Source: Tachypleus tridentatus
Lineage: Eukaryota; Arthropoda; Merostomata; Xiphosura; Limulidae
Direction: 5' to 3'
Assembly: GCF_004210375.1 (NCBI RefSeq)
Contig: NC_134830.1
Span: forward strand, 4,340,001-4,404,000
Length of the DNA stretch: 64,000 nucleotides
Under the pieces are notes generated by a model. That model saw nothing but the letters and a program-made list of their open reading frames with translations. It was not told the origin of the DNA and did not search any database. This document shows positions 7,171 to 63,267 of the stretch, piece by piece. Within the stretch, counting starts at the first letter, position 1, and each line of letters starts with the position of its first letter. A program made the translations under genes and the position numbers.

Positions 7171-7335
7171 AGTGTGTTTACAATTTGTAGGTGAGTCTGT
7201 GTAAACAGTTTTATATAGATGGTTTAGTGTGTTTACAATTTGTAGGTGAGTCTGTGTAAACAGTTTTATATAGATGGTTTAGTGTGTTTACAATTTGTAG
7301 GTGAGCCTGTGTAAACAGTTTTATATTGATGGTTA
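7171..7335. repeat. 55 bp tandem repeat, 3 copies, each with a donor-like site
   Basis: Units start at 7171, 7226 and 7281. The first two contain TTTGTAGGTGAGTCTG, a strong match to the 5' splice-site consensus (AG|GTGAGT); the third reads GTGAGC. The array lies 85 bp before the XKR exon 1 acceptor. Confidence 0.9.
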
Positions 7336-7420: not shown

Positions 7421-7434
7421 TGGAGAGACATCCA

Positions 7435-7949
7435 ATGGTTGCTGTTAATGAAGGTGACCAGTTAGCTGACCTCCATTATGTCAGACGTGGCCAGTCAGAC
7501 AAAGGACAACACGACAGACGGGACTCTAACTTGTCCAATGATCCCGAGGGAGTCCAGATTGAGACCATCATGCTGGACCATGAAAATCCTGAAGAGATGT
7601 TCTCTCTTCAGTCTGTGTACCCCACCACGTGGAACGAGAAAGACCACTTCACAGTCTTCAGCGCCATAGCTACTTTCGTGTGTATTGTATCGTACGTTAT
7701 TAATATTGGAACTGATGTGGCAGTCTGTTATCTGCTCTTCATGGAAAACAACCTTTGGTGGTTTGGTTTCACAGCAACAACCACAGTAGTTCCTGTTTTA
7801 ACGGTCAATGTCTTTAGCATCCGGTGGTATTTGCAAGATGCCCAGGAGAAGAAGCTGACGTCGCGGACGTTGTCTAAGCCTAATTTGTCGAAACTAGACT
7901 GGACGGTTCGAATTTTCTTCCACGTCCTCCTGTTGGGACCAGTGATAAG
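7435..7949 (+). CDS. XKR-like gene, coding exon 1 (N-terminal part)
   Basis: Encodes residues 1-171 plus two bases of codon 172. A pyrimidine tract ending CTTTTCACAG at 7420 is a good 3' splice site, so the exon probably starts at 7421 and the first in-frame ATG is at 7435; the true start could lie in an upstream exon. The N-terminal 70 residues are polar and probably cytosolic. Hydrophobic segments lie at about 73-102 (containing INIGTDVAVCYLL), 108-128 (WWFGFTATTTVVPVLTV) and 156-172 (FFHVLLLGPVIR), matching the XKR N-terminal half. The 5' splice site is taken as AAG|GTACTG (GT at 7950-7951), giving a phase 2 end that joins exon 2 as GPVI-R-YVDLLKYG. The reading frame stays open into the following repeat array to 9036, because that array has a 30 bp unit. 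The +4/+5 bases of the donor are weak. Confidence 0.85.
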
Positions 7950-10900
7950 GTACTGTGTTTGTTTGGAACAAATGATAAGGTACTGTGTTTGTTTGGGACC
8001 AGTGATAAGGTACTGTGTTTGTTTGGAACAAATGATAAGGTACTGTGTTTGTTTGGGACCAGTGATAAGGTACTGTGTTTGTTTGGAACAATTGATAAGG
8101 TACTGTGTTTGTTTGGGACCAGTGATAAGGTACTGTGTTTGTTTGGAACAAATGATAAGGTACTGTGTTTGTTTGGGACCAGTGATAAGGTACTGTGTTT
8201 GTTTGGGACCAGTGATAAGGTACTGTGTTTGTTTGGGACCAGTGATAAGGTACTGTGTTTGTTTGGGACCAGTGATAAGGTACTGTGTTTGTTTGGGACC
8301 AGTAATAAGGTACTGTGTTTGTTTGGGACCAGTGATAAGGTACTGTGTTTGTTTGGGACCAGTGATAAGGCACTGTGTTTGTTTGGGACTAGTGATAAGG
8401 TACTGTGTTTGTTTGGGACCAGTGATAAGGTACTGTGTTTGTTTGGGACCAGTGATAAGGCACTGTGTTTGTTTGGGACTAGTGATAAGGCACTGTGTTT
8501 GTTTGGTACTAGTGATAAGGTACTGTGTTTGTTTGGGACCAGTGATAAGGTACTGTGTTTGTTTGGGACCAGTGATAAGGTACTGTGTTTGTTTGGGACC
8601 AGTGATAAGGTACTGTATTGGTTTGGGACCAGTAATAAGGCACTGTGTTTGTTTGGGACCAGTGATAAGGTACTGTGTTTGTTTGGGACCAGTGATAAGG
8701 TACTGTGTTTGTTTGGGACCAGTAATAAGGCACTGTGTTTGTTTGGGACCAGTGATAAGGCACTGTGTTTGTTTGGGACCAGTGATAAGGCACTGTGTTT
8801 GTTTGGGACTAGTGATAAGGTACTGTGTTTGTTTGGGACCAGTGATAAGGTACTGTGTTTGTTTGGGACCAGTGATAAGGTACTGTGTTTGTTTGGGACC
8901 AGTGATAAGGTACTGTGTTTGTTTGGGACCAGTGATAAGGTACTGTGTTTGTTTGGTTTCTCACACACGTAATTTGCCAAACGTCACACTAGTAACACAC
9001 TGGCTGTTGCTGGGTCATGTATTATATAAAACATGATAAAGATATTTTCAAAGAACATAATAAAAACTGAGAACTAGTTTTCACAGTCATGTCAAATATT
9101 CATGTCAAAGTAAGAACAAGGTGTTTCTCTCCATACTGAGAAATTTGTACATTTGTACGTGTACTTCCCGTATACAGTGTACTAGCATCTGAGTTAGCAA
9201 TAAGAAGACTGGAACAATATGAGGACTTGAATCATGTCAGTACGGTTAACTTCAGACCAATCGTGTCAGTACGGCTAACTTCAGACCAATCGTGTCAGTA
9301 CGACTAACTTCAGACCAATCGTATCAGTACGGCTAACTTGACACCAATCGTGTCAGTACGGCTCAATTGAGACCAATCGTATCAGTACGGCTAACATGAG
9401 ACCAATCGGGTCAGTACGGCTAATATCAATCCAATCGTGTCAGTACGGTTAACTTCAGACCAATCGTGTCAGTACGGCTATCTTCAGACTAGTCCTATTA
9501 GTACGGTGATTATCTTCAGACTGATCCTGTCAGCATGGGTAACTTCAGACAGCAACAGTATCAATACACTTTTAAACAGCAATCTGCAATGGTGTAGAAA
9601 CAGTATCAATACACTTTTAAACAGCACTCAGCAATGGTATAGAAACAGTATCAATACACTTTTAAACAGAACTCAGCAATGGTACAGACACAGTATCAAT
9701 ACACTTTTAAACAGCACTCAGCAATGGTACAGCAACAGTATCAATACACTTTTAAACAAAACTCAACAATGGTATAAAAACAGTATTATTACACTTTTAA
9801 ACTGAACTCAGCAATAGAATAAAAACAGTATCAATACACTTTTAAAAAGAACTCAGCAATGGTATAAATACAGTATCAATAGACTTTTAAACAGCAATCA
9901 GCAATGGTATAGAAACAGTATCAATAGACTTTTAAACAGCAATCAGCAATGGTATAGAAACAGTATCAATACACTTTTAAACAGAATTCAGCAATGGTAT
10001 AGAAACAGTATCAATACACATTTAAACAGAACTCAGCAATGGTATAGAAACAGTGTCAATACACTTTTAAACAAAACTCAGCAATGGTATAGAAACAGTA
10101 TCAATACACTTTTAAACAGAACTCAGCAATGATACAGCAACAGTATCAATACACTTTTAAACAGAACTCAACAATGGTATAAAAACAGTATTATCACACT
10201 TTTAAACTGAACTCAGCAATAGAATAAAAACAGTATCAATACACTTTTAAAAAGAACTCAGCAATGGTATAAAAACAGTATCAATACACTTTTCAACAGC
10301 ACTCAGCAATGGTACAGCAACAATATCAGTACACTCTTAAACAGCACTCAGCAATGGTACAGCAACAGTATCAATACACTTTTAAACAGAACTCTGCAAT
10401 GGTACAGCAACAGTATCAATACACTTTTAAACAGAACTCAGCAACGGTATAGAAACAGTATCAATACACGTTTAAACAGAACTTAGCAATGGTATAGAAA
10501 CAATATCAATACACTTTTAAACAGAACTCAGCAATGGTACAGCAACAGTGTCAACACACTTTTAAACAGAACTCAGCAATGGTACAGCAACAGTGTCAAC
10601 ACACTTTTAAACAGAACTCAGCAATGATACAGCAACAGTATCAATACACTTTTAAACAGTACTCAGCAATGGTACAGCAACAGTATCAATACACTTTTCA
10701 ACAGCACTCAGCAATGGTACAGCAACAATATCAGTACACTCTTAAACAGCACTCAGCAATGGTACAGCAACAGTATCAATACACTTTTAAACAGAACTCA
10801 GCAATGGTACAGCACCAGTATCAATACACTTTTAAACAGTACTCAGCAATGGTACAGCAACAGTATCAATACACTTTTAAACAGAACTCAGCAACGGTAT

Positions 10901-13900
10901 AGAAACAGTATCAATACACGTTTAAACAGAACTTAGCAATGGTATAGAAACAATATCAATACACTTTTAAACAGAACTCAGCAATGGTACAGCAACAGTG
11001 TCAACACACTTTTAAACAGAATTCAGCAATGATATAGAAACAATATCAATACACTTTTAAACAGAACTCAGCAATGGTACAGCAACAGTATCAATACACT
11101 TTTAAACAGTACTCAGCAACGGTATAGAAACAGTATCAATACACGTTTAAACAGAACTTAGCAATGGTATAGAAACAATATCAAAACACTTTTAAACAGA
11201 ACTCAGCAATGGTACAGCAACAGTGTCAATACACTTTTAAACAGAATTCAGCAATGGTATAGAAACAGTATCAATACACTTTTAAACAGAACTTAGCAAT
11301 GGTATAGAAACAGTATCAATACACTTTTAAACAGAATTCAGCAATGGTATCGAAACAGTATCATTACACTTTTAAACAGAACTCAGCAATAGAATAAAAA
11401 CAGTATCAATACACTTTTAAAGAGAACTCAGCAATGGTATACAAACAGTATCATTACACTTTTAAACAGAACTCAGCAATAGAATAAAAACAGTATCAAT
11501 ACACTTTTAAAGAGAACTCAGCAATGGTATACAAACAGTATCAATACACTTTTAAACAGCAATCAGCAATGGTATAGAAACAGTATCAATACACTTTTAA
11601 ACAGCAATCAGCAATGGTATAGAAACAGTATCAATACACGTTTAAACAAAACTCAGCAATGGTATAGAAACAGTATCAATATACTTTTAAACAGAACTTA
11701 GCAGTGGTATAAAAACAGTATCGATACACTTTTAAACAGAACTCAGCAATGGTACAGCAACAGTATCAATACACTTTTAAACAGAATTCAGCAATGGTAT
11801 AGAAACAGTATCAATACACTTTTAAACAGAACTCAGCAATGGTACAGCAACAGTATCAATACACTTTTAAACAGTACTCAGCAACGGTATAGAAACAGTA
11901 TCAATACACGTTTAAACAGAACTTAGCAATGGTATAGAAACAATATCAATACACTTTTAAACAGAACTCAGCAATGGTACAGCAACAGTGTCAACACACT
12001 TTTAAACAGAATTCAGCAATGATATAGAAACAGTATCAATACACTTTTAAACAGAACTCAGCAATGGTACAGCAACAGTATCAATACACTTTTAAACAGT
12101 ACTCAGCAACGGTATAGAAACAGTATCAATACACGTTTAAACAGAACATAGCAATGGTATAGAAACAATATCAATACACTTTTAAACAGAACTCAGCAAT
12201 GGTACAGCAACAGTGTCAATACACTTTTAAACAGAATTCAGCAATGGTATAGAAACAGTATCAATACACTTTTAAACAGAACTTAGCAATGGTATAGAAA
12301 CAGTATCAATACACTTTTAAACACAACTCAGCAATGGTATAGAAACAGTATCAATAGACTTTTAAACAGCAATCAGCAATGGTATAGAAACAGTATCAAT
12401 ACACGTTTAAACAAAACTCAGCAATGGTATAGAAACAGTATCAATACACTTTTAAACAAAACTCAGCAATAGAATAAAAAGAGTATCAATACACTTTTAA
12501 AGAGAACTCAGCAATGGTATACAAACAGTATCAATACACTTTTAAACAGCAATCAGCAATGGTATAGAAACAGTATCAATACACTTTTAAACAGAACTCA
12601 GCAATGGTATAGAAACATTATCGATACACTTTTAAACAGAATTCAGCAATGATACAGCAACAGTATCAATACACTTTTAAACAGCACTCAGCAATGGTAC
12701 AGCAACAGTATCAATACACTTTTAAACAGAACTCAGCAATGGTATAGAAACAGTATCAATACACTTTTAAACAAAACTCAGCAATGGTATAGAAACAGTA
12801 TCAATATACTTTTAAACAGAACTCAGCAATGGAATAAAAACAGTATCAATACACTTTTAAAGAGAACTCAGCAATGGTATACAAACGGTATCAATACACT
12901 TTTAAACAGCAATCAGCAATGGTATAGAAACAGTATCAATACACTTTTAAACAGAACTCAGCAATGGTATAGAATCAGTATCAATACACTTTTAAACAGA
13001 ACTCAGCAATGATACAGCAACAGTATCAATACACTTTTAAACAGCACTCAGCAATGGTATACAAACAGTATCAATACACTTTTAAACAGCAATCAGCAAT
13101 GGTATAGAAACAGTATCAATACACTTTTAAACAGAACTCAGCAATGGTATAGAAACAGTATCGATACACTTTTAAACAGAATTCAGCAATGATACAGCAA
13201 CAGTATCAATACACTTTTAAACAGCACTCAGCAATGGTACAGCAACAGTATCAATACACTTTTAAACAGAACTCAGCAATGGTATAGAAACAGTATCAAT
13301 ACACTTTTAAACAAAACTCAGCAATGGTATAGAAACAGTATCAATATACTTTTAAACAGAACTTAGCAGTGGTATAAAAACAGTATCGATACACTTTTAA
13401 ACAGAATTCAGCAATGGTATAGAAACAGTATCAATACACGTTTAAACAAAACTCAGCAATGGTATAGAAACAGTATCAATACACTTTTAAACAGAACTCA
13501 GCAATGGTATAGAAACAGTATCGATACACTTTTAAACAGAATTCAGCAATGATACAGCAACAATATCAATACACTTTTAAACAGAACTCAGCAATGGTAC
13601 AGCAACAGTATCAATACACTTTTAAACAGAATTCAGCAATGGTATAGAAACAGTATCAATACACTTTTAAACAGAACTCAGCAATGGTACAGCAACAGTA
13701 TCAATACACTTTTAAACAGTACTCAGCAATGGTACAGCAACAATATCAGTACACTCTTAAACAGCACTCAGCAATGGTACAGCAACAGTATCAATACACT
13801 TTTAAACAGAACTCAGCAATGGTACAGCAACAGTATCAATACACTTTTAAACAGAACTCAGCAATGGTACAGCAACAGTGTCAATACACTTTTAAACAGA

Positions 13901-16900
13901 ATTCAGCAATGGTATAGAAACAGTATCAATACACTTTTAAACAGAACTTAGCAATGGTATAGAAACAGTATCAATACACTTTTAAACAGAATTCAGCAAT
14001 GGTATCGAAACAGTATCAATACACTTTTAAACACAACTCAGCAATGGTATAGAAACAGTATCAATAGACTTTTAAACAGCAATCAGCAATGGTATAGAAA
14101 CAGTATCAATACACGTTTAAACAAAACTCAGCAATGGTATAGAAACAGTATCAATACACTTTTAAACAGAACTCAGCAATGGTATAGAAACAGTATCGAT
14201 ACACTTTTAAACAGAATTCAGCAATGATACAGCAACAGTATCAATACACTTTTAAACAGAACTCAGCAATAGAATAAAAAGAGTATCAATACACTTTTAA
14301 AGAGAACTCAGCAATGGTATACAAACAGTATGAATACACTTTTAAACAGCAATCAGCAATGGTATAGAAACAGTATCAATACACTTTTAAACAGAACTCA
14401 GCAATGGTATAGAAACATTATAGATACACTTTTGAACAGAATTCAGCAATGATACAGCAACAGTATCAATACAGTTTTAAACAGCACTCAGCAATGGTAC
14501 AGCAACAGTATCAATACACTTTTAAACAGAACTCAGCAATGGTATAGAAACAGTATCAATACACTTTTAAACAAAACTCAGCAATGGTATAGAAATAGTA
14601 TCAATATACTTTTAAACAGAACTCAGCAATAGAATAAAAACAGTATCAATACACTTTTAAAGAGAACTCGGCAATGGTATACAAACGGTATCAATACACT
14701 TTTAAACAGCAATCAGCAATGGTATAGAAACAGTATCAATACACTTTTAAACAGAACTCAGCAATGGTATAGAATCAGTATCAATAGACTTTTAAACAGC
14801 AATCAGCAATGGTATAGAAACAGTATCAATACACGTTTAAACAAAACTCAGCAATGGTATAGAAACAGTATCAATACACTTTTAAACAGAACTCAGCAAT
14901 GGTATAGAAACAGTATCGATACACTTTTAAACAGAATTCAGCAATGATACAGCAACAGTATCAACACACTTTTAAACAGCACTCAGCAATGGTACAGCAA
15001 CAGTATCAATACACTTTTAAACAGAACTCAGCAATGGTATAGAAACAGTATCAATACATTTTTAAACAAAACTCAGCAATGGTATAGAAACAGTATCAAT
15101 ATACTTTTAAACAGAACTTAGCATTGGTATAGAAACAGTATCGATACACTTTTAAACAGATTTCAGCAATGGTATAGAAACAGTATCAATACACTTTTAA
15201 ACAAAACTCAGCAATGGCATAGAAACAGTGTCAATACACTTGTAAACAAAACTCAGCAATGGTATAGAAACAGTATCATTACACTTTTAAACAGAACTCA
15301 GCAATGGTATAAAAACAGTATCAACACACTTTTAAACAGCACTCAGAAATGGTACAGCAACAGTATCAATACACTCTTAAACAGAACTCAGCAATAGAAT
15401 AAAAACAGTATCAATACACTTTTAAAGAGAACTCAGCAATGGTATACAAACAGTATCATTACACTTTTAAACAGAACTCAGCAATAGAATAAAAACAGTA
15501 TCAATACACTTTTAAAGAGAACTCAGCAATGGTATACAAACAGTATCAATACACTTTTAAACAGCAATCAGCAATGGTATAGAAACAGTATCAATACACT
15601 TTTAAACAGAACTCAGCAATGGTATAGAAACAGTATCGATACACTTTTAAACAGAATTCAGCAATGATACAGCAACAGTATCAATACACTTTTAAACAGC
15701 ACTCAGCAATGGTACAGCAACAGTATCAATACACTTTTAAACAGAACTCAGCAATGGTATAGAAACAGTATCAATACACTTTTAAACAAAACTCAGCAAT
15801 GGTATAGAAACAGTATCAATATACTTTTAAATAGAACTTAGCAGTGGTATAGAAACAGTATCGATACACTTTTAAACAGAATTCAGCAATGGTATAGAAA
15901 CAGTATCAATACACTTTTAAACAAAACTCAGCAATGGCATAGAAACAGTATCAATACACTTGTAAACAAAACTCAGCAATGGTATAGAAACTGTATCATT
16001 ACACTTTTAAACAGAACTCAGCAATGGTATAAAAACAGTATCAATACACTTTTAAACAGCACTCAGAAATGGTACAGCAACAGTATCAATACACTTTTAA
16101 ACAGAACTCAGCAATAGAATAAAAACAGTATCAATACACTTTTAAACAGAACTCAGCAATGGTATAGAAACAGTATCAATACACTTTTAAACAGCACTCA
16201 GGAATAGTACAGCAACAGTATCAATACAGTTTTAAACAGAACTCAGCAATGGTATAGAAACAGTATCAATACACTTTTAAACAGAACTCAGCAATGGTGC
16301 AGCAACAGTATCAATACACTTTTAAACAGAACTCAGCAATGGTATAGAAACAGTATCAATACACTTTTAAACAGAACTCAGCAATGGTACAGCAACAATA
16401 TCAATACACTTTTAAACAGTACTCAGCAATGGTATAGAAACAGTATCAATACACTTTTAAACAGAACTCAACAATGGTATAAAACAGTATCATTACACTT
16501 TTAAACAGCAAACTGTAAACAGTAAGTATCTGGTTACCTATGTTTGCAATACTTTTTATAACGAAGGTTTACCCTGTTGGATGTCCTGTACTGAATATGA
16601 TATTTAGACATTCAGATATTAGAAACATTCCTCGTTCGTTCTTCGGAACAATACCATAAAATTCGTTATAAAGACCTGATAATAACAATCCACAATATCA
16701 GTAATAAGACCAGGTAATGACACCTCGGTGGCTTTTCTAAATAAACCACACCCACACTCCTTTAAAAGTGCTTACTTGTTTAAATGTAATCGCGTATAAT
16801 GAGTTTGATGAATTCCACTAAAAGCTGCTCGAGGATTTAATGAACCATTCATAAAGCCAAGAGAAGAGGTAAAAAATAATCATTAGCTTTTAATCTACTT

Positions 16901-19900
16901 CAATCGATTTGACTGTCATTTTTATTACTCGCCAACGGCCTTAAATTCCAGTTTGCGATTTTGTGGCAACTAAGTGAAACTTATATAGCGTGGCTTCTCT
17001 TCATGTGATTAAACAGATATGTGAAACTTACATAGCGTGGCTTCTCTTCATGTGATTAAACAGATATGTGAAACTTACATAGCGTGGCTTCTCTTCATGT
17101 GATTAAACAGATATGTGAAACTTACATAGCGTGGCTTCTCTTCATGTGATTAAACAGATATGTGAAACTTACATAGCGTGGCTTCTCTTCATGTGATTAA
17201 ACAGATATGTGAAACTTACATAGCGTGGCTTCTCTTCATGTGATTAAACAGATATGTGAAACTTACATAGCGTAGCTTCTCTTCATGTGATTAAACAGAT
17301 ATGTGAAACTTACATAGCGTGGCTTCTCTTCATGTGATTAAACAGATATGTGAAACTTACATAGCGTGGATTCTCTTCATGTGATTAAACAGATATGTGA
17401 AACTTACATAGCGTGGCTTCTCTTCATGTGATTAAACAGATATGTGAAACTTACATAGCGTGGCTTCTCTTCATGTGATTAAACAGATATGTGAAACTTA
17501 CATAGCGTGGCTTCTCTTCATGTGATTAAACAGATATGTGAAACTTACATAGCGTGGCTTCTCTTGATGTGATTAAACAGATATGTGAAACTTACATAGC
17601 GTGGCTTCTCTTCATGTGATTATGTGGTTGAATGGGATACAAGGTGTTTGGTTTCGTTATCTAGATTCTTGTAACCTGTTCGCTTTTAACCTTCGATTGC
17701 ACGGTCTAAACTATAATTCTGACATTACCAAATAGAAAATTGTAGTTATTTTATCTGAACTTGACAGGTGAAATGTTGTACGGTCTACAATATAATTCTG
17801 ACGTTACCAAATAGAAAATTGTAGTTATTTTATCTGAACTTGACAGGTGAAATGTTGTACGGTCTACAATATAATTCTGACGTTACCAAATAGAAAATTG
17901 TAGTTATTTTATCTGAACTTGACAGGTGAAATGTTGTACGGTCTACAATATAATTCTGACGTTACCAAATAGAAAATTGTAGTTATTTTATCTGAACTTG
18001 ACAGGTGAAATGTTGTACGGTCTACAATATAATTCTGACGTTACCAAATAGAAAATTGTAGTTATTTTATCTGAACTTGACAGGTGAAATGTTGTACGGT
18101 CTACAATATAATTCTGACGTTACCAAATAGAAAATTGTAGTTATTTTATCTGAACTTGACAGGTGAAATGTTGTACGGTCTACAATATAATTCTGACGTT
18201 ACCAAATAGAAAATTGTAGTTATTTTATCTGAACTTGACAGGTGAAATGTTGTACGGTCTACAATATAATTCTGACGTTACCAAATAGAAAATTGTAGTT
18301 ATTTTATCTGAACTTGACAGGTGAAATGTTGTACGGTCTACAATATAATTCTGACGTTACCAAATAGAAAATTGTAGTTATTTTATCTGAACTTGACAGG
18401 TGAAATGTTGTACGGTCTACAATATAATTCTGACGTTACCAAATAGAAAATTGTAGTTATTTTATCTGAACTTGACAGGTGAAATGTTGTACGGTCTAAA
18501 TATAATTCTGACGTTACCAAATAGAAAATTGTAGTTATTTTATCTGAACTTGACAGGTGAAATGTTGTACGGTCTAAATATAATTCTGACGTTACCAAAT
18601 AGAAAATTGTAGTTATTTTATCTGAACTTGACAGGTGAAATGTTGTACGGTCTACAATATAATTCTGACGTTACCAAATAGAAAATTGTAGTTATTTTAT
18701 CTGAACTTGACAGGTGAAATGTTGTACGGTCTAAATATAATTCTGACGTTACCAAATAGAAAATTGTAGTTATTTTATCTGAACTTGACAGGTGAAATGT
18801 TGTACGGTCTACAATATAATTCTGACGTTACCAAATAGAAAATTGTAGTTATTTTATCTGAACTTGACAGGTGGAATGTTGTACGGTCTACAATATAATT
18901 CTGACGTTACCAAATAGAAAATTGTAGTTATTTTATCTGAACTTGACAGGTGAAATGTTGTACGGTCTACAATATAATTCTGACGTTACCAAATAGAAAA
19001 TTGTAGTTATTTTATCTGAACTTGACATGTGAAATGTTCTACGGTCTAAACTATAATTCTGACATTACCAAATAGAAAATTGTAGTTATTTTATCTGAAC
19101 TTGACATGTGAAATGTTGTACGGTCTAAACTATAATTCTGACATTACCAAATAGAAAATTGTAGTTATTTTATCTGAACTTGACAGGTGAAGTGTTGTAC
19201 GGTCTAAACTATAATTCTGACATTACCAAATAGAAAATTGTAGTTATCTTATCTGAACTTGACAGGTGAAGTGTTGTACGGTCTAAACTATAATTCGTTT
19301 ATCCAAGGATAAACAAGTTTTTTACAATTAAACCTATATTAAACCTACATGTTGTTGTCTACATGTTTCGTTTTATTCAAAAATCTGCATTTGTTTCTTT
19401 GTGCTCACGCATTTTTATTTTTATTTTAATATCCGAAATTATGTATGGATCACACGTATCAGTTATTATATTATGTATGGATCACACGTATCAGTTATTA
19501 TATTATGTATGGATCACACGTATCAGTTATTATATTTCATTGTATGAAAAGCTCTCTCGTGTCCCATAATACGAACTCATCGGAGAATACCAAAAGCTCA
19601 CTTCATTTACACTAAACAAACAACAGCTTTGTTTATACGCTGATCTTTCACACCAGATGGCAGTCAATCTGACAATACACCTACATAACGTTTTACTATT
19701 AAACTCTAAACATTACTAAGATTGTATCATGCTTGTATTACATTTATTTCTCTATTACAACATAAAAATGTTACAGATTATTTTATGAGTAATTTCAGGA
19801 AAACACAAATATTACAATACTTTGTGTGGCACGCTGATGAAAGTTGTTTATTGTGCAACAAAGAGCGACACAACGAGCTAAATGTACTGTGTCCATTAAA

Positions 19901-22900
19901 GTTATTTTAGTTTCTAACTTATCGCTGAACCACCAGGGGAGAGGGCATTTTATGAGGTTATAAAGCAAATATTTTCAACACAATGTAACCATTATAGTAT
20001 TATTTTAATATAATGGGTCTTTCATTATGAATTTTTTTTTATAGAAATACTACATTGAATTGTATGGAACTCCAATTCCAGGTATGTATTTCACGTGTTA
20101 GAACACGGTCTATACCTTTCTTACTATAATTATTTTGTATCTTTCTGCATGTAGATACGTTGACTTACTTAAATACGGGCTCAGAAGTCGACAGTTCAAC
20201 AAACAAAAGCAGCGAAGGAAGTTTGAGTGGCACTTCAACGTTGGACACAAACCACCAATCAGAGTAGAGCAATTGAATGACGTCAATTATCATCACCTGA
20301 TGATTGAAGAAGACCGAGACACCGCCTTTCTTGCTTTGTTGGAAAGTTTTATGGAATCAGCACCTCAACTTGTGTTACAGATCTATATTTTAGCTGAACG
20401 AGAATCGCCTGCTTCGTTTCTTACAGGTAACCTTGACTGCTAAGTTTCTTACAGGTAACCTTGACTGCTTCGTTTCTTACAGGTAACCTTGACTGCTTCG
20501 TTTCTTACAGGTAACCTTGACTGCTTCGTTTCTTCACGTGACCTTTACTGCTTCGTTTCTTACAGGTAACCTTGACTGCTAAGTTTCCTTAACAAGTTTT
20601 ACATTGTTCTCATAAAGTCTCTGTTGGATGTTTTTCAGATTCGTATAAGAAAATTTTGTATTTATGTTGTTTCATAAAAAATAAACTATCTGACCCGTGT
20701 TTACTCCCATTAGGTTCATTTTAGTAACTGTTAGTTTTATCAGTTGGTACTAGGTTTACCAGTTCCTGTTAGTAGTTGTCGCAACTACTTAGTTTTGTCA
20801 GTTACTCTTGATATTATAAGTTACTGGTTCCTTTTCTCAGTTATTATTGATTTTATCAGCTCCTGCTGACTTTATCAGTTACTGTTGATTTTCTCAACTC
20901 CTGTTAACTTTATCAGTTACTGTTGGTTTTGTCTGTTACTTTATCAGTTACTGTTGATTTTCTCAGCTCCTGTTGACTTTATCAGTTACTGTTGGTTTTG
21001 TCTGTTACTTTATCAGTTACTGTTGATTTTCTCAACTCCTGTTCACTTTATCAGTTACTGTTGATTTTGTCTGTTACTTTATCAGTTACTGTTGATTTTC
21101 TCAACTCCTGTTCACTTTATCAGTTACTGTTGATTTTGTCTGTTACTTTATCAGTTACTGTTGATTTTGTCTGTTACTTTATCAGTTACTGTTGATTTTC
21201 TCAACTCCTGTTCACTTTATCAGTTACTGTTGGTTTTATCTGTTACTTTATCAGTTACTGTTGGTTTTATCTGTTACTTTATCAGTTACTGTTGATTTTG
21301 TCTGTTACTTTATCACTTACTGTTGATTTTCTCAACTCCTGTTCACTTTATCAGTTACTGTTGGTTTTATCTGTTACTTTATCAGTTACTGTTGATTTTC
21401 TCAACTCCTGTTCACTTTATCAGTTACTGTTGGTTTTATCATACCTAAGTATATCAAAATATTTTCTTGTATGTTATTAAGGAAAACTACTCAAACTGCG
21501 ATACGTTAATTAATTCTGTCTAATTACTGACTGAATCAAGTGCTTCATGTGTGCTGAATATTTATTCATATTTTAACAATAAAAACTGAATCATGGTGTA
21601 ATATAACAGTATCACAAGATCTTATTTCCATAAAAACTGGGTCATGTAATAATATAACAGTATCACAAGATCTTATTTCCATAAAAACTGAGTCATGTAA
21701 TAATATAACAGTATCACAAGACCTTATTTCCATATAAACTGGGTCATGTAATAATATAACAGTATCACAAGATCTTATTTCCATATAAACTGGGTCATGT
21801 AATGATATAACAGTATCACAAAACCTTATTTCCATATAAACTGGGTCATGTAATAATATAACAGTATCACAAGACCTTATTTCCATATAAACTGGGTCAT
21901 GTAATAATATAACAGTATCACAAGACCTTATTTCCATATAAACTGAGTCATGTAATAATATAACAGTATCACAAGACCTTATTTCCATATAAACTGGGTC
22001 ATGTAATAATATAACAGTATCACAAGACCTTATTTCCATATAAACTGGGTCATGTAATAATATAACAGTATCACAAGACCTTATTTCTATATAAACTGAG
22101 TCATGTAATAATATAACAGTGTCACAAAACCTTATTTCCATATAAACTAGGTCATGTAATAATATAACAGTATCACAAGATCTTATTTCCATATCAACTG
22201 AGTCATGTAATAATATAACAGTATCACGAGACCTTATTTCCATATAAACTGGGTCATGTAATAATATAACAGTATCACAAGATCTTATTTCCATATAAAC
22301 TAGGTCATGTAATAATATAACAGTATCACAAGATCTTATTTCCATATACACTGGGTCATGTAATAATATAACAGTATCACAAGACCTTATTTCTATATAA
22401 ACTGAGTCATGTAATAATATAACAGTATCACAAGACCTTATTTCCATATAAACTAGGTCATGTAATAATATAACAGTATCACAAGATCTTATTTCTATAT
22501 AAACTGAGTCATGTAATAATATAACAGTATCACAAAACCTTATTTCCATATAAACTGGGTCATGTAATAATATAACAGTATCACGAGACCATATTTCTAT
22601 ATAAACTGGGTCATGTAATAATATAACAGTATCACAAGACCTTATTTCTATATAAACTGAGTCATGTAATGATATAACAGTATCACAAAACCTTATTTCC
22701 ATATAAACTGGGTCATGTAATAATATAACAGTATCACAAGACCTTATTTCCATATAAACTGAGTCATGTAATAATATAACAGTATCACAAGACCTTATTT
22801 CCATATAAACTGGGTCATGTAATAATATAACAGTATCACAAGACCTTATTTCCATATAAACTGGGTCATGTAATAATATAACAGTGTCACAAAACCTTAT

Positions 22901-25900
22901 TTCCATATAAACTGGGTCATGTAATAATATAACAGTATCACGAGACCTTATTTCCATATAAACTGGGTCATGTAATAATATAACAGTATCACAAGATCTT
23001 ATTTCCATATAAACTAGGTCATGTAATAATATAACAGTATCACAAGATCTTATTTCCATATACACTGGGTCATGTAATAATATAACAGTATCACAAGACC
23101 TTATTTCTATATAAACTGAGTCATGTAATAATATAACAGTATCACAAGACCTTATTTCCATATAAACTAGGTCATGTAATAATATAACAGTATCACAAGA
23201 TCTTATTTCTATATAAACTGAGTCATGTAATAATATAACAGTGTCACAAAACCTTATTTCCATATAAACTGGGTCATGTAATAATATAACAGTATCACAA
23301 GACCTTATTTCCATATCAACTGAGTCATGTAATAATATAACAGTATCACGAAACCTTATTTCCATATAAACTGGGTCATGTAATAATATAACAGTATCAC
23401 AAGATCTTATTTCCATATAAACTAGGTCATGTAATAATATAACAGTATCACAAGATCTTATTTCCATATACACTGGGTCATGTAATAATATAACAGTATC
23501 ACAAGACCTTATTTCTATATAAACTGAGTCATGTAATAATATAACAGTATCACAAGACCTTATTTCTATATAAACTGAGTCATGTAATAATATAACAGTA
23601 TCACAAGACCTTATTTATATATAAACTGTGTCATGTAATAATGTAACAGTATCACAAAACCTTATTTCCATATAAACTGGGTCATGTAATAATATAACAG
23701 TATCACAAGACCTTATTTCCATATAAACTGGGTCATGTAATAATATAACAGTATCACGAGACCTTATTTCCAAATAAACTGAGTCATGTAATAATATAAC
23801 AGTATCACAAGATCTTATTTCCATATAAACTAGCTAATTTAGGATGTTTCTTTTTTATTATTTATTCTAAATATTCTTTAAAACATTAGTCTTAGAGAGT
23901 GACTGTGTATTTTGTTCATGATAAACCTATATTTTCAAGGTTAGTTGGGTTCATAATATTTTGTGTTAACTTCAAAAAATGTGCTATTTGTTCTCTGCCC
24001 ACCAAGGGTATCGAGTTGGGTTCATAAGCTTAAACTGGTTAGCCCACTACTTCGTTTAATCTTATCTGCTGCATGTAAAGTTATTTTCTCGGAGCTGCTA
24101 GAATATGTTAAAGCTGTTAATTTCAGGAGTGGAAAGTATCTATTTCAGATGTCAATGTGGTATCCAGTTACAGAGAACTGGAAAATAATATTGTTTTAAA
24201 TTGATAAAAGTATTCGGTTATCAAATTCTGGCATGAAAACGTTACTGATTTTATTGGTCTATTTTTTCATTCCTGGCATTTTAACTTTTCTCAAAATTTC
24301 ACTCTCAATCATCTTAACAAACGAACATGGCAGGGGTTTAGTTTAGAGAAATCTGAAGAATCTCTCTCCAACTGGGATAGTCAGGAACCTTGTGGTTCCT
24401 CTTCGTCCTCTTTCGTGAAAGATTATTGAAATTAGCAGGGGGTTTTGTTTTTCTTTTATCTTGACTCTGTTTTGGGTGTAGGAGTGAGGTTGGTCATAAT
24501 ATTGATGAGCGAGACAAAGGTAGCACCGGAGAAACCAGCCAGACCAGATACCGAAAAGCAGATGTCATAAGGTTGGTCATAATATTGATGAGCGAGACAA
24601 AGGTAGCACCGGAGAAACCAGCCAGACCAGATACCGAAAAGCAGATGTCATGAGGTTGGTCATAATATTGATGAGCGAGACAAAGGTAGCACCGGAGAAA
24701 CCAGCCAGACCAGATACCGAAAAGCAGATGTCATAAGGTTGGTCATAATATTGATGAGCGAGACAAAGGTAGCACCGGAGAAACCAGCCAGACCAGATAC
24801 CGAAAAGCAGATGTCATGAGGTTGGTCATAATATTGATGAGCGAGACAAAGGTAGCACCGGAGAAACCAGCCAGACCAGATACCGAAAAGCAGATGTCAT
24901 GAGGTTGGTCATAATATTGATGAGCGAGACAAAGGTAGCACCGGAGAAACCAGCCAGACCAGATACCGAAAAGCAGATGTCAAAGTAAATATGAACATAT
25001 ACGCGAAACGACCCGATTCAGGGCTGGGCAATATGATGCCTTGGCTGGGATCTAAAGATCCAATGCCTGAGATTTGGATGTGGAGGGAAACAAGAGTGTT
25101 CCGAGAAAACCCACTTTCACAGGACAGGCGCCGAAAGATTTACCTGTCCTGTGCCCGAGACCTGAAAAAGAAATACATATTATATACGTAAGGTTTGTCC
25201 TTTATATACTTTGTTGTGTGATTTGAGATTGCTGAAATATGTTGTATGTTGAAATATATTTTGTTGGTGCACTGGCTAATTTACATAGTGATGCAGTTTG
25301 TTTGTTTCTGTGTTCTGCTTTTAAATAATATTTGTATGACATTTCTATTAGTCTGTTTCCAAGAGTTGGTAAGTTACTGATTTGGTGTAAGTTTACTGGT
25401 GTGTATGATGCTCTTAGTATTTTATTTTGTTGTACTTGGATTTTTCTGTAGTGTGTTATTTGACATATTATATGTGACTTGACATCCATACTCTATTAAC
25501 GGACGGATGTGAACGTTGTATATCTTAACATAATCCTACCTCTATTGGTTTTATAGTTTGCCTGCAGGTGGCGTCAGTGGCGTCGTCACTCTTTGAGCTG
25601 TCTTGGGCCTTAGCATTCTACCAACGCGCTCTGCGCCGATCAGTTCTAGACAAAAAGAACATGACTCGAACTGGAACTGCTATTCAATTCCTGTGGCGTT
25701 TTTGTACCATCGGGGCCCGTGTGTTTGCCCTGGCATTGTTTGCATCAGAGTACAAACTGTGGACGATACCAGTGTGTGTAGGTCATTGGGGCGTTATGAC
25801 CGTATGGATAATGCACCAACGTACTCACTTCTGTGATGACGAGACAGGAAAGAGGGGTCATTGTGAAGAGTACTTGTTCAACATGGTCATTGGTGTGGTT

Positions 25901-26164
25901 TACATCTTCTGCTTCTTGAACGTGAAGGATGGACCCACGCGCTACAAAGTCACTCTATATTATACCATCGTTTTTATGGAGAATTTTATTCTGATAGTAC
26001 TGTGGTACGTACACACAGATCCAACTTTATGGTATCACCTACCTGCCTTTATTGGCATTTTTACAAGCTCACTAATGGGTGTAAGTATCATGGCGATCTA
26101 TTATTGTTTCTGTCATCCCAATGGAAAACTTCCACAAAAAGACCGTCAGGCACGTTGCTGTTAA
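7435..26164 (+). CDS. XK-related (XKR) family membrane protein, whole spliced gene
   Basis: The span covers three coding exons (7435-7949, 20155-20426, 25557-26164) separated by repeat-filled introns. Exon phases agree: 515 + 272 + 608 nt = 1395 nt, i.e. 464 codons plus stop. The joined protein has about nine or ten hydrophobic segments, the family motif ESAPQLVLQ (residues 239-247) and HPNG (449-452) just after the last membrane segment, as in XKR4/6/7-type proteins. Known of the family: multipass plasma-membrane proteins; some members (Xkr8, Xkr4, Xkr9, worm CED-8) are caspase-activated phospholipid scramblases. Scrambling by this protein is inference. The C-terminal tail after HPNG is only about 12 residues, much shorter than vertebrate XKR4. 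The paralogue is not assigned. An upstream 5' exon is likely because exon 1 is preceded by a 3' splice site. Confidence 0.85.
7935..8956 (+). repeat. 30 bp minisatellite made of the XKR exon 1 / intron 1 junction
   Basis: About 34 copies of a 30 bp unit whose core is GGACCAGTGATAAGGTACTG, identical to the last coding bases of XKR exon 1 plus the first intron bases. The dinucleotide after AAG occurs at 7950 and every 30 bp to 8940. By eye 27 of 34 copies keep GT and 7 read GC (before 8371, 8461, 8491, 8641, 8731, 8761, 8791). The first copies alternate two variants (GGAACAAATG and GGGACCAGTG), a 60 bp higher-order unit. Because 30 is a multiple of 3, translation adds a ten-residue motif (YCVCLGPVIR) per unit. 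Long open frames on both strands here are consequences of the repeat. Confidence 0.93.
9234..9548. repeat. 29 bp minisatellite, ~11 copies (intron 1)
   Basis: Core CAGTACGGCTAACTTCAGAC with gradual divergence towards the right end. Confidence 0.9.
9549..16510. repeat. 45 bp minisatellite, ~155 copies (intron 1)
   Basis: Core CAGTATCAATACACTTTTAA joined to CAGCAATGGTATAGAAA or the variant CAGCAATGGTACAGCAA. At 45 bp per unit, short frames such as MVQQQYQYTFKQ open where the TAG-containing variant is absent. Variant blocks recur; for example the GCAACGGTATAG block at 10441 recurs at 10891, 450 bp (10 units) later. Sequence near 16480 loses one base and the array ends. Confidence 0.95.
16511..16973. 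other. Single-copy intron 1 island between arrays
   Basis: No coding or repeat signal seen. Confidence 0.5.
16974..17622. repeat. 47 bp minisatellite, ~14 near-identical copies (intron 1)
   Basis: Core CTTACATAGCGTGGCTTCTC. Very few substitutions between copies (e.g. 17275, 17370, 17565), so it is young or actively homogenised. Unrelated to the 47 bp array at 3.5-4.8 kb. Confidence 0.95.
17700..19297. repeat. 79 bp minisatellite, ~20 copies (intron 1)
   Basis: Landmarks ATAATTCTGACGTTACC and GAACTTGACAGGTGAAATG. The centre is nearly uniform; both edges carry older variants (ACATTACC, GGTCTAAACTATAATTC), the usual edge-decay pattern. Most units contain a CAG|GTGAAA donor-like string. Confidence 0.95.
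19441..19535. repeat. 32 bp tandem repeat, 3 copies
   Basis: Units start at 19441, 19473 and 19505 with ATGTATGGATCACACGTATC. Confidence 0.88.
19536..20140. other. Single-copy end of intron 1
   Basis: AT-rich; leads into the exon 2 acceptor at 20154. A short frame at 19722-19910 is not recognised. Confidence 0.5.
20155..20426 (+). CDS. XKR-like gene, coding exon 2
   Basis: Encodes residues 172 (split codon) to 262 plus one base. The 3' splice site is TTTCTGCATGTAG at 20142-20154 and the 5' splice site is TTACAG|GTAACC (GT at 20427-20428). A basic cytosolic stretch (RSRQFNKQKQRRKFEW) is followed by the family hallmark LLESFMESAPQLVLQIYIL in a membrane segment at about residues 227-253. Reading through the donor meets TAA at 20441. 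The donor lies in the first copy of a 28 bp tandem repeat that continues into the intron. The exon is flanked on both sides by minisatellite-rich introns. Confidence 0.87.
20411..20590 (+). repeat. 28 bp tandem repeat of the XKR exon 2 / intron 2 junction
   Basis: Six copies plus a partial, starting at 20411, 20439, 20467, 20495, 20523 (27 bp, degenerate) and 20550. Each full copy carries TTTCTTACAGGTAACC, i.e. the real exon 2 donor with a short pyrimidine tract and AG before it. Five copies keep an intact CAG|GTAACC. The unit is not a multiple of 3, and the second copy brings an in-frame TAA. Confidence 0.9.
20780..21440. repeat. Compound T-rich tandem repeat (intron 2)
   Basis: Interleaved units built from TTTATCAGTTACTGTTGATT, TCTCAACTCCTGTTCAC and TTGTCTGTTAC. 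Strongly pyrimidine-rich on the plus strand. Small frames (e.g. LSVTLSVTVDFLNSC) are translations of the repeat. Confidence 0.85.
21580..23832. repeat. 51 bp minisatellite, ~44 copies (intron 2)
   Basis: Core GGTCATGTAATAATATAACA plus GTATCACAAGACCTTATTTCC. The 51 bp unit keeps a 635-codon minus-strand frame open (17-residue repeat with SCDTVILLHD); there is no initiation context or domain, so it is treated as spurious. Variant order repeats at 714 bp (14 units): the variants at 22226 and 22345 recur at 22940 and 23059. Confidence 0.95.
23833..24486. other. Single-copy part of intron 2
   Basis: Contains CTGCCCACCAAGGGTATCGA near 23995, faintly like a reversed SINE family 2 B box, too short to call. 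Ends in a pyrimidine tract (TTTGTTTTTCTTTTATCTTG) before 24480. Confidence 0.4.
24487..24984. repeat. 83 bp tandem repeat, 6 near-identical copies (intron 2)
   Basis: Unit starts AGGTTGGTCATAATATTGAT and ends AAAAGCAGATGTCAT with A or G following. Markedly more GC-rich than its surroundings. It is preceded by a pyrimidine tract ending in TGTAG (24480) and followed by a GC-rich single-copy stretch. Confidence 0.93.
24985..25190. other. GC-rich segment with hairpin, possible interspersed repeat
   Basis: About 50% GC in an AT-rich intron. Plus strand stays open for 66 codons (MNIYAKRPDSGLGNMMPW...), with no family recognised. It contains GGAGGGAAACAAGAG and CCGAGAAAACCCAC, resembling a motif common to many metazoan interspersed repeats (GGAAACC...CCGGAGAAAACCCAC). 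A perfect 11 bp inverted repeat, CACAGGACAGG (25118-25128) with its complement (25143-25153), forms a hairpin with a 14 nt loop. A repeat origin seems likelier than an exon. Confidence 0.4.
25200..25535 (-). mobile_element. Jockey-like non-LTR retrotransposon 3' remnant
   Basis: Minus-strand frames read IYNVHIRPLIEYG and then, after a frameshift, HYRKIQVQQNKILRA ... NLPTLGNRLIEMSYKYYLKAE. These match the C-terminal region of jockey-type reverse transcriptases (RP..EYG, then Q.K.LR, then LP.L...I..L). Truncated, frame-broken and sitting antisense in XKR intron 2. Confidence 0.65.
25557..26164 (+). CDS. XKR-like gene, coding exon 3 (C-terminal part, stop)
   Basis: Encodes residues 263-464 and the TAA stop at 26162. 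Two 3' splice sites are possible. TTTTATAG|TTTGCC (exon from 25557) keeps the frame with exon 2 and places LQVASVASSLFELSWAL against the XKR family's LQ...AAASLVSLAWAL region. CCTGCAG|GTGGCG (exon from 25568) would shift the frame. I prefer 25557. Membrane segments are at about 267-285, 305-327, 330-348, 368-385, 394-414 and 420-446, then HPNG (449-452) and a short basic tail ending CC. The last ~60 coding bases and the stop form the first copy of a ~111 bp tandem repeat running into the 3' UTR. Confidence 0.85.
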
Positions 26165-26498
26165 TATTAAAAACCAAAAGAAGCCAGACAACAATCACAT
26201 GATGACAGTCTGTAACTGCTTCTGTCATCGTAATGGAAACCTTCCAGAAAAGACCGTCAGGCACGTTGCTGTTAATATTAAAAACCAAAAGAAGCCAGAC
26301 AACAATCACATGATGACAGTCTGTAACTGCTTCTGTCATCGTAATGGAAACCTTCCAGAAAAGACCGTCAGGCACGTTGCTGTTAATATTAAAAACCAAA
26401 AGAAGCCAGACAACAATCACACGATAACAGTCTACAATGCTTCTGTCATCACAGTGGAAACCTTCCATAATAAAGACCGTGAGGCACGTTACTACTGA
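26105..26498 (+). repeat. ~111 bp tandem repeat of the XKR stop-codon region
   Basis: About 3.6 copies with units starting near 26105, 26217, 26328 and 26438 (landmark TTCTGTCATC). The first copy is the coding end of exon 3 (FCHPNGKLPQKDRQARCC and stop). Later copies lie in the 3' UTR and carry small indels, so they would not encode the same tail in the same frame. Confidence 0.9.
26469..26474 (+). promoter_or_regulatory. Candidate polyadenylation signal AATAAA for the XKR gene
   Basis: AATAAA is present only in the last copy of the 111 bp repeat; the equivalent place in other copies lacks it. A second AATAAA is at 26885-26890. Which one is used cannot be told from sequence. Confidence 0.35.
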
Positions 26499-30690: not shown

Positions 30691-33600
30691 TATAATTCTA
30701 TGTTTGTGTCTCTTTTCAAAACCACACAAACCGCTATTGTACAATCAGAATTACACTTTATAATTCTATCTTTGTGTCTATTTTTAAAACCTTACAAACC
30801 GCTACTGTACAATCAGAATTACTTTATAATTCTATGTTTGTGTCTATTTTAAACCCTTACAAACCGCTATTGTACAATCAGAATTACACTTTATAATTCT
30901 ATGTTTGTGTCTATTTTTAAACCCTTACAAACCGCTATTGTACAATCAGAATTACACTTTATAATTCTATGTTTGTGTCTATTTTTAAACCTTACAAACC
31001 GCTATTGTACAATCAGAATTACACTTTATAATTCTATGTTTGTGTCTATTTTTAAACCCTTACAAACCGCTATTGTACAATCAGAATTACACTTTATAAT
31101 TCTATGTTTGTGTCTATTTTTAAAACCTTACAAACCGCTATTGTACAATCAGAATTACACTTTATAATTCTATGTTTGTGTCTATTTTAAAACCTTACAA
31201 ACCGCTATTGTACAATCAGAATTACACTTTATAATTCTATGTTTGTGTCTATTTTTAAACCGTTACAAACCGCTATTGTACAATCAGAATTACTTTATAA
31301 TTCTATGTTTGTGTCTATTTTAAAACCTTACAAACTATTGTACAATCAGAATTACACTTTATAATTCTATGTTTGTGTCTATTTTTAAAACCTTACAAAC
31401 CGCTATTGTACAATCAGAATTACACTTTATAATTCTATGTTTGTGTCTATTTTTAAAACCTTACAAACCGCTATTGTACAATCAGAATTACACTTTATAA
31501 TTCTATGTTTGTGTCTATTTTAAAACCTTACAAACCGCTATTGTACAATCAGAATTACACTTTATAATTCTATGTTTGTGTCTATTTTAAAACCTTACAA
31601 ACCGCTATTGTACAATCAGAATTACACTTTATAATTCTATGTTTGTGTCTATTTTTAAAACCTTACAAACCGCTATTGTACAATCAGAATTACACTTTAT
31701 AATTCTATGTTTGTGTCTATTTTTAAAACCTTACAAACCGCTATTGTACAATCAGAATTACACTTTATAATTCTATGTTTGTGTCTATTTTTAAAACCTT
31801 ACAAACCGCTATTGTACAATCAGAATTACACTTTATAATTCTATGTTTGTGTCTATTTTAAAACCTTACAAACCGCTATTGTACAATCAGAATTACACTT
31901 TATAATTCTATGTTTGTGTCTATTTTAAAACCTTACAAACCGCTATTGTACAATCAGAATTACACTTTATAATTCTATGTTTGTGTCTATTTTATTGTAC
32001 AATCAGAATTACACTTTATAATTCTATGTTTGTGTCTATTTTTAAAACCTTACAAACCGCTATTGTACAATCAGAATTACACTTTATAATTCTATGTTTG
32101 TGTCTATTTTTAAAACCTTACAAACCGCTATTGTACAATCAGAATTACACTTTATAATTCTATGTTTGTGTCTATGTTTGTGTCTATTTTAAACCTTACA
32201 AACCGCTATTGTATCAGAATTACACTTTATAATTCTATGTTTGTGTCTATTTTAAACCCTTACAAACCGCTATTGTTGTACAATCAGAATTACACTTTAT
32301 AATTCTATGTTTGTGTCTATTTTTAAAACCTTACAAACCGCTATTGTACAATCAGAATTACACTTTATAATTCTATGTTTGTGTCTATTTTAAACCCTTA
32401 CAAACCGCTATTGTACAATCAGAATTACACTTTATAATTCTATGTTTGTGTCTATTTTTAAAACCTTACAAACCGCTATTGTACAATCAGAATTACACTT
32501 TATAATTCTATGTTTGTGTCTATTTTAAATTCTATGTTTGTGTCTATTTTACAAACCGCTATTGTACAATCAGAATTACACTTTATAATTCTATGTTTGT
32601 GTCTATTTTTAAAACCTTACAAACCGCTATTGTACAATCAGAATTACACTTTATAATTCTATGTTTGTGTCTATTTTAAAACCTTACAAACCGCTATTGT
32701 ACAATCAGAATTACACTTTATAATTCTATGTTTGTGTCTATTTTTAAAACCTTACAAACCGCTATTGTACAATCAGAATTACACTTTATAATTCTATGTT
32801 TGTGTCTATTTTAAAACCTTACAAACCGCTATTGTACAATCAGAATTACACTTTATAATTCTATGTTTGTGTCTATTTTTAAAACCTTACAAACCGCTAT
32901 TGTACAATCAGAATTACACTTTATAATTCTATGTTTGTGTCTATTTTTAAAACCCTTACAAACCGCTATTGTACAATCAGAATTACACTTTATAATATGT
33001 TTGTGTCTATTTTATGCTATTGTACAATCAGAATTACACTTTATAATTCTATGTTTGTGTCTATTTTTAAAACCTTACAAACCGCTATTGTACAATCAGA
33101 ATTACACTTTATAATTCTATGTTTGTGTCTATTTTTAAAACCTTACAAACCGCTATTGTACAATCAGAATTACACTTTATAATTCTATGTTTGTGTCTAT
33201 TTTTAAAACCCTTACAAACCGCTATTGTACAATCAGAATTACACTTTATAATTCTATGTTTGTGTCTATTTTTAAAATTCCTTACAAACCGCTATTGTAC
33301 AATCAGAATTACACTTTATAATTCTATGTTTGTGTCTATTTTAAAACCTTACAAACCGCTATTGTACAATCAGAATTACACTTTATAATTCTATGTTTGT
33401 GTCTATTTTTAAAACCTTACAAACCGCTATTGTACAATCAGAATTACACTTTATAATTCTATGTTTGTGTCTATTTTAAAACCTTACAAACCGCTATTGT
33501 ACAATCAGAATTACACTTTATAATTCTATGTTTGTGTCTATTTTTAAACCCTTACAAACCGCTATTGTACAATCAGCTAATGTTTGTGTCTATTTTTTAT

Positions 33601-41632: not shown

Positions 41633-42132
41633 NNNNNNNNNNNNNNNNNNNNNNNNNNNNNNNNNNNNNNNNNNNNNNNNNNNNNNNNNNNNNNNNNNNN
41701 NNNNNNNNNNNNNNNNNNNNNNNNNNNNNNNNNNNNNNNNNNNNNNNNNNNNNNNNNNNNNNNNNNNNNNNNNNNNNNNNNNNNNNNNNNNNNNNNNNNN
41801 NNNNNNNNNNNNNNNNNNNNNNNNNNNNNNNNNNNNNNNNNNNNNNNNNNNNNNNNNNNNNNNNNNNNNNNNNNNNNNNNNNNNNNNNNNNNNNNNNNNN
41901 NNNNNNNNNNNNNNNNNNNNNNNNNNNNNNNNNNNNNNNNNNNNNNNNNNNNNNNNNNNNNNNNNNNNNNNNNNNNNNNNNNNNNNNNNNNNNNNNNNNN
42001 NNNNNNNNNNNNNNNNNNNNNNNNNNNNNNNNNNNNNNNNNNNNNNNNNNNNNNNNNNNNNNNNNNNNNNNNNNNNNNNNNNNNNNNNNNNNNNNNNNNN
42101 NNNNNNNNNNNNNNNNNNNNNNNNNNNNNNNN
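41633..42132. other. Assembly gap, 500 N
   Basis: Exactly 500 N, a conventional placeholder length. The left side is mid-array (68 bp unit), the right side is unrelated single-copy sequence, so the true array end and gap size are unknown. Confidence 0.98.
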
Positions 42133-55363: not shown

Positions 55364-55369
55364 ACTTAC

Positions 55370-56838: not shown

Positions 56839-57059
56839 CTAAAATTGTGGACAGAATAAATGAAAACAAAAATAAATCAACATTTATCTCTATGTACTAA
56901 AAATATAATTAATACTGAGTTAAATGATTTGACAATATAATTAATTAACAAATGATTGCATTTCTTGTTATTTCTAATAAAAGTAAAACCGATTAAACAA
57001 TAAAAATTGATGCTGTTATTTGTCTTCATCACAGACGTTTAGGAATATGACTTGACAAA

Positions 57060-63000: not shown

Positions 63001-63265
63001 ATCAACGTCATGAGAACCTGTTAGAAAATACATAATAAAGTTTTAATATCAGTAAAACCTTAGTAGAATAAGTATCAATGTCATGAGGACCTGATAAAAA
63101 TACATCGTAAAGTTTTAATATCAGTAAAGCCTGAGTGGAATATGTATCAACGTCATGAGGACCTGTTAAAAATACATAATAAAGTTCTAATATCAGTAAA
63201 ACCTTAATGGAATAAGTATCAATGTCATGAGGACCTGTAAGAAGATATATAATAAAGTTTTAATA
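57060..63265. repeat. 72 bp minisatellite, ~86 copies, with higher-order blocks
   Basis: Core GTAAAACCTTAGTGGAATAA, GTATCAATGTCATGAGGACC and TGTTAAAAATACATA. A marker variant (CCTTAGTGGTATAAG) occurs at 57201, 58142 and 60886, i.e. 941 and 2744 bp apart, and the surrounding multi-unit blocks recur in the same order. Minus-strand frames (MYFLTGPHDIDTCSTKV...) are translations of the repeat; two identical 152-codon frames at 58020 and 60764 simply reflect the block copy. It lies upstream, in the sense of the minus-strand gene, of the 55370-56838 exon, probably in its intron. Confidence 0.95.
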
Positions 63266-63267
63266 TC

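Follow-up and report, generated by a model that had tools for sequence, protein, structure and literature searches.

A 30-bp minisatellite across the first coding exon-intron boundary of a horseshoe crab XK-related gene, read as a probable mirage-type array

In a 64-kb stretch of Tachypleus tridentatus DNA, analysed at its full length of 64,000 nucleotides and called the window below, the first coding exon of an XK-related (XKR) gene runs directly into a minisatellite whose unit carries the exon's own 5' splice site. The gene thus presents a train of near-identical donors, raising the question of which donor is used and what the repetition means for the protein. An earlier note on this DNA had left two options side by side, a generator of length-variable proteins and a splicing burden that is handled by using one donor.

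The array and its host gene

On the forward strand, the array occupies 7933-8956 with a period of 30 bp, 34.1 copies, 94% matches and 0% indels according to TRF. A pattern count of the donor-like sites ATAAG/GTACTG and ATAAG/GCACTG (here and below, a slash marks the splice site) found 34 of them from 7950 to 8940, with every step exactly 30 bases. Their GT or GC starts fall at 7950 + 30n (n = 0 to 33), 27 being GT and seven GC. The two methods agree on an exon/intron junction amplified 34 times at 30 bp, as the earlier note had described it, and the direct count gives the same donor numbers that had been obtained there by eye. The seed joins 17 exonic bases (7933-7949) to 13 intronic ones and includes the 5' splice site; all 27 GT units contain AGGT. 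The units differ among themselves: 7 of the 30 columns are variable in the 33 complete units on the intron side, the GC donors sit in units 15, 18, 19, 24 and 27-29, and two types alternate in units 1-8, a sign that copying next to the exon probably went by blocks of two. The lack of indels is ordinary in this DNA, because 17 of the 30 large TRF rows (at least 5 copies and a score of at least 200, overlapping rows counted separately) are equally indel-free, and we rejected the indel-free register as a sign of selection on the frame.

The host gene lies on the forward strand. Its first coding exon (7421-7949) has the ATG at 7435 and ends in phase 2 at AAG/GTACTG, and the open reading frame at 7369-7951 matches Pfam PF09815 at 3.2e-18. 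Exon 2 (20155-20426; phase 2 in, phase 1 out) matches at 1.7e-15 and was checked in the spliced frame, and the terminal coding exon (25557-26164; 6.1e-65) reaches the last profile position and ends with the stop codon TAA at 26162-26164. The joins of 7949 to 20155 (phase 2) and of 20426 to 25557 (phase 1) were placed by sequence reading and homology. Spliced from the first donor, and therefore with zero added units, the protein has 464 residues and scores 363.5 bits against PF09815 (cut-off 24.8) over profile positions 3-337 of 337, a full-length match that places it among the XK-related proteins. The XKR proteins have a scramblase role. An acceptor-like CTTTTCACAG ends at 7420, before the first coding exon, and suggests a further, probably non-coding exon upstream of 7421. 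The assignment of the locus to an XKR gene is thus borne out by PF09815, whereas the exon that the earlier note had called exon 1 is strictly the first coding exon; we keep the shorter name.

Two further arrays lie at exon ends of the same gene. The first (20409-20587, forward strand; TRF and pattern count) has a 28-bp unit in 6.4 copies and takes in the last 18 bases of exon 2 and the first 10 of the following intron. Exon 2 ends as CTGCTTCGTTTCTTACAG/GTAACCTTGA, and that 28-base string is itself tandemly repeated. Its donor, ACAG/GTAACC, is intact in five copies, with exon ends at 20426, 20454, 20482, 20510 and 20565, and broken in one. By eye, the unit GTAACCTTGACTGCTTCGTTTCTTACAG resembles a complete mini-intron, with a donor, a branch-like CTTGAC, a pyrimidine tract and ACAG, and the end of exon 2 is itself acceptor-like as part of this unit. 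At the exon 2/exon 3 junction (20426 to 25557), which the array adjoins, the host protein is about 5 residues longer than XKR4, within ESPASFLTV, and gaps occur there also in alignments to XKR8 and to 7p14, which we take to be rat XKR9. The second array (26108-26490, forward strand; TRF) has a 111-bp unit in 3.4 copies that includes the stop codon region. It begins within the terminal exon and covers the last 57 coding bases including the stop, so what it repeats is a coding end with no splice site. In addition, 7171-7334 holds three copies of a 55-bp unit with a strong donor-like TAG/GTGAGT (-10.6 kcal/mol with U1). This array lies about 90 bases 5' of the first coding exon and could be the end of an upstream exon, amplified likewise.

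Donor choice and the fate of the copies

Pairing energies were computed against the U1 5' end. The GT donors of the exon 1 array (AAG/GTACTG) pair at -6.2 kcal/mol in 26 of 27 cases and at -6.5 kcal/mol in the other, and the seven GC donors at -3.0 kcal/mol. Elsewhere, the exon 2 donor reaches -8.0 kcal/mol and the donor of a putative minus-strand gene -12.2 kcal/mol. An identical 30-base context is common to 18 of the 27 GT donors. Because the native donor is weak and near-identical to its copies, no local feature singles it out, and position or exon definition would have to select it. A stronger donor past the array, CGG/GTCAGT at 9409 (-8.7 kcal/mol), was excluded for the coding exon since it lies 3' of the stop at 9036 that ends the frame.

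We read the exon 1 feature as a mirage-type minisatellite of an exon-intron boundary, tolerated as one donor, probably the first, is used; we put the probability of this reading at roughly 0.83. Anatomy, copy counts, frames, family fit and lack of coding constraint are results of the analysis; we infer single-donor usage, neutrality of the copies and the following route of birth. Tandem duplication between two short direct repeats, a TTGG at the end of the exon and another 30 bases away in the intron, would have copied the 17 + 13 bases, and unequal exchange or slippage would later have expanded the duplication to 34 copies, the original exon end and donor staying 5' of all of them. The spliceosome would take one donor, most likely the first (7949/7950), and leave the remainder as intron. 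The gene would tolerate the array because the native donor precedes the copies and only one donor is used. The same process would have hit exon 2 and the stop-codon end of the terminal exon. Set in register, the exon edge and the far edge of the exon 1 array have TTGG in common; at the exon 2 array the two edges have CTGCT in common, followed after two bases by GTTTC. Such shared edge words are the expected trace of tandem duplication between short direct repeats followed by growth.

A process that may coexist with the mirage-type reading, quite unlikely in our view, is that the array repairs itself: each GT unit being bounded by GT and AG, a transcript spliced at a later donor would be spliced again, from the first donor to the AG of the unit in use, and whole units would be lost as mini-introns. 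The exon 2 unit would suit it best, having a donor, a branch-like motif, a pyrimidine tract and, by eye, an ACAG that resembles an acceptor, but the exon 1 unit has no pyrimidine tract just 5' of AAG. The minimum intron length in animals probably exceeds 28 or 30 bases, and a single unit would then be too short, so that only the removal of several units at once could work. As a precedent, PMC4974935 cites fission yeast introns that lie across 24-bp duplicates carrying AGGT, but AGGT is not enriched among the array units of this window (5 of 31 on the forward strand against 4.16 expected).

The length-variable protein generator, in which alternative donors would add n copies of the ten-residue segment YCVCLGPVIR to the XKR protein, fares worse still, and we regard it as very unlikely. 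Its appeal lies in the reading frame, and both claims that had been made for the frame stand. The exon 1 frame passes all units without a stop and ends at the stop at 9036, and every donor is in frame with exon 2: donors n = 0, 1, 2 and 33, joined to exon 2 (20155) and exon 3 (25557) and translated through both, give proteins of 464, 474, 484 and 794 residues, and for the remaining donors the 30-base step and the open frame imply the same. The equal pairing of 26 of the 27 GT donors with U1 also suits a generator. The open frame is weak evidence, because four of the six frames are stop-free across 7950-8939 (the other two have 4 and 70 stops), and a period divisible by 3 is a one-in-three chance; together the two properties carry little weight.

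Coding constraint among the units would be a better sign of protein variants. The exon 1 units show 10 distinct base changes, 9 nonsynonymous and 1 synonymous, against 69 nonsynonymous and 21 synonymous among all possible changes in the unit, and the distinct variants fall on codon positions 1, 2 and 3 in the numbers 5, 4 and 1. These numbers are small, but they hold no bias towards synonymous change. Compared with a protein-length VNTR, the array keeps the frame and lacks a signature of coding constraint among its units; its variants are few and are without such constraint.

The fit to the protein family also argues against added units. Against PF09815, the protein scores 363.5 bits with zero units. 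One extra unit lowers this to 353.6, and three give 356.7 with the match split into two stretches, so that the zero-unit form scores best among the 0, 1 and 3 units tried. The alignment of the host protein with the solved XKR4 (9boj) is gapless across the exon 1/exon 2 junction, which lies at the slash in LLLGPVIR/YVDLLKYGLRSRQ of the query and LQLGQIWR/YFHTIYLGIRSRQ of XKR4, the segment alone reaching only 11.2 bits; extra units break this gapless match. From the gapless alignment and the PF09815 scores, it is therefore the product of the first donor that the family conserves. The array is no feature of the XKR family, XKR4 having no insertion at this junction.

The strongest argument on exon 1, as we read the gene, comes from the array at exon 2. 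Its 28-base step shifts the frame, the first added unit brings a TAA after FLTGNLDC, and with any donor after the first the protein ends after 267 residues. Only the first exon 2 donor gives the full protein, because later donors include the stop codon. The exon 2 array is thus incapable of generating protein variants, yet one donor, the first of several, must already be chosen there, with nothing to win in protein variety. As between the two options of the earlier note, the family fit, the exon 2 array, the lack of constraint and the analogy with amphioxus favour the burden handled by one donor and leave the protein generator unlikely. The in-frame property of the exon 1 array is incidental.

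It is highly improbable that the donors form a functional decoy that recruits U1 snRNP at the start of the 12-kb intron, regulating splicing or suppressing premature polyadenylation. There are 27 GT donors at the intron start, an AATAAA/ATTAAA hexamer lies at 9059, about 100 bases 3' of the 34-copy array, and 30 such hexamers occur in intron 1 on the forward strand, but the exon 1 donors are weak at -6.2 kcal/mol, and the hexamer figure is a raw count in AT-rich sequence, 11 of the 12 positions listed falling in the array with the 45-bp unit. Copy number in assembled tandem arrays is often unreliable and a 500-N run at 41633-42132 marks the assembly as gapped, but an assembly artefact is hardly credible for a 1-kb array that is short beside the 7-kb array assembled next to it and whose units vary in an ordered pattern, with alternation in units 1-8 and placed GC units.

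Minisatellites of the window and exon ends

Given that three arrays of one gene reach into its exons, we wondered how arrays are distributed over the window as a whole. The window has a G+C content of 31.5% and contains 31 merged arrays, which cover 62% of its non-N sequence; among them are 45 bp x 154 (9554-16508), 135/68 bp (30691-37409) and 72 bp x 85 (57092-63269). In the parts of the genome reports drawn on here, the G+C content of T. tridentatus is 32.03% and simple repeats make up only 0.77% by RepeatMasker (PMC7011531), and repeats amount to about one third of the genome, with DNA elements first and LINEs second (PMC7815833). The G+C contents are compatible, which proves nothing about the source; the repeat figures do not resemble a window that is 62% minisatellite, but one window is no genome. 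The 500-N run probably reflects scaffolding of a draft assembly, or else masking of that stretch. The Rfam scan of the window gave no match at the gathering score, and the tRNA search of the window gave none. Relatives of the terminal exon protein were sought in viral and prokaryote contigs, where pattern searches gave 7 and 18 candidates that all failed tblastn.

Because arrays cover 62% of the window, their overlap with exons says little by itself, and it is the array edges just inside exons that matter. Arrays enter three of the four exon 3' ends (two donors and one stop) and none of the four 5' ends, and the 3' end that is free of an array is the donor of the putative minus-strand gene. 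With an inner edge of at most 60 bases and 30 of the 31 arrays, 17 of 63,999 circular shifts reach three entered 3' ends (P 2.7e-4), and none of 20,000 gap and length shuffles does so. With an inner edge of at most 30 bases, two of the four exon 3' ends are entered (P 0.0021, again with 30 of the 31 arrays), and among donors alone two of three are (P 0.0025, all 31 arrays). These tests and their thresholds are post hoc, the eight boundaries include two from the putative gene, and adjacent shifts depend on one another. Part of the edge effect would also follow from selection that removes arrays elsewhere in exons. The putative gene is a pair of long open frames that adjoin each other at 55366-56876 on the minus strand (255 and 249 codons, stop to stop), with acceptor-like and donor-like ends and a change of frame beside an A run near 56130; a search of these frames against Pfam gave no match, and the stretch is a pseudogene or else a gene that carries a sequence error.

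In a BLAST comparison of the 31 merged consensus units of this window (E up to 0.01), the exon arrays match no other array, and the only links are those of 30691 with 37520 and of 45524 with 50229, the latter by 12 bases. The exon 1 and exon 2 units thus share two properties with mirages, in that they span an exon-intron boundary with its splice site and, within this window, derive from their own locus; the family fit of the zero-unit product agrees with a further one, regular splicing. A general seeding of arrays at AGGT was considered and found unsupported, the forward-strand count of 5 of 31 standing against 4.16 expected from unit shuffles; on the minus strand, AGGT occurs in 11 of 31 array units, the shuffle null covering the forward strand only.

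These observations allow a broader proposal, which we hold to be unlikely: that in this genome minisatellites arise preferentially at downstream exon ends, that position alone makes the first donor win, and that re-splicing can prune GT-to-AG units, most plainly those at exon 2, after use of a later donor. If births at exon ends were indeed preferred, the donor trains that follow the internal coding exons would amount to a natural experiment on spliceosome choice, possibly outside amphioxus. One natural transcript carries 27 GT donors, and 18 of these share the same 30-base context, which largely removes the local cue. Since the local sequence is largely equal among donors, the array puts directly the question of how position or exon definition picks a 5' splice site, and the exon 2 array, where a wrong donor truncates the protein, provides a built-in control.

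Comparison with known systems

The comparison draws on parts of the papers cited. Introns can be gained by tandem duplication of AGGT, as in the Rogers model and the 24-bp case of fission yeast (both cited in PMC4974935). The present array is similar in that AG/GT copies leave units bounded by GT and AG, and different in that the duplicated segment already spans an existing intron boundary. In C. elegans, an intronic minisatellite has been linked to alternative splicing (PMC4039745). Human internal tandem repeats in segmental duplications have units of about 30 bp in an average of 4 copies, some of them over exon-intron boundaries, and RNA evidence ties them to changed transcripts and to the gain of introns (PMC2812944). 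Their unit size is like that of the exon 1 array, whereas the average of 4 copies and the RNA-backed splice changes set them apart from the 34 copies here. Because these human boundary repeats are tied to altered splicing, normal splicing over the exon 1 array is not to be assumed.

The closest relatives are the "mirages" of amphioxus, tandem repeats over exon-intron boundaries that were named in Adh3 and also occur in globin genes (PMC3087553); details for Adh3 come to us through later papers (PMC3087553, PMC3902484). Data on Adh3 and RT-PCR of the globins suggest that regular splicing is undisturbed even though many repeats hold AG/GT, and amphioxus mirages show length instability (PMC3087553). 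Further cases are the PGBD5 and troponin C genes, and the troponin C mirage, too, is described as leaving splicing undisturbed; for PGBD5, a gene prediction took two repeats as an exon, which the authors discount, inferring normal splicing without transcript proof (PMC3902484). Searches of the open-licence literature found mirages in amphioxus only; those for horseshoe crab and minisatellite, covering titles and the starts of abstracts, found none on such arrays, and those for minisatellite and splice terms found no mention of Limulus among the matches listed.

Like the amphioxus mirages of Adh3, BflGb6, BflGb9, troponin C and PGBD5, the exon 1 array consists of minisatellite-like copies of a boundary with AG/GT in many units. 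The mirage units are 10-72 bp in Adh3, 150-160 bp in the globins and 60 and 108 bp in PGBD5, compared with 34 copies of 30 bp here, and in amphioxus they strike 5' and 3' boundaries, whereas here they lie at two donors and the stop end of one gene. This kind of array is already known; what stands out is the copy number, the near-identity of the donors and the fact that one gene has three such arrays. If the horseshoe crab array is indeed of this kind, a host other than amphioxus would give mirage minisatellites a wider range.
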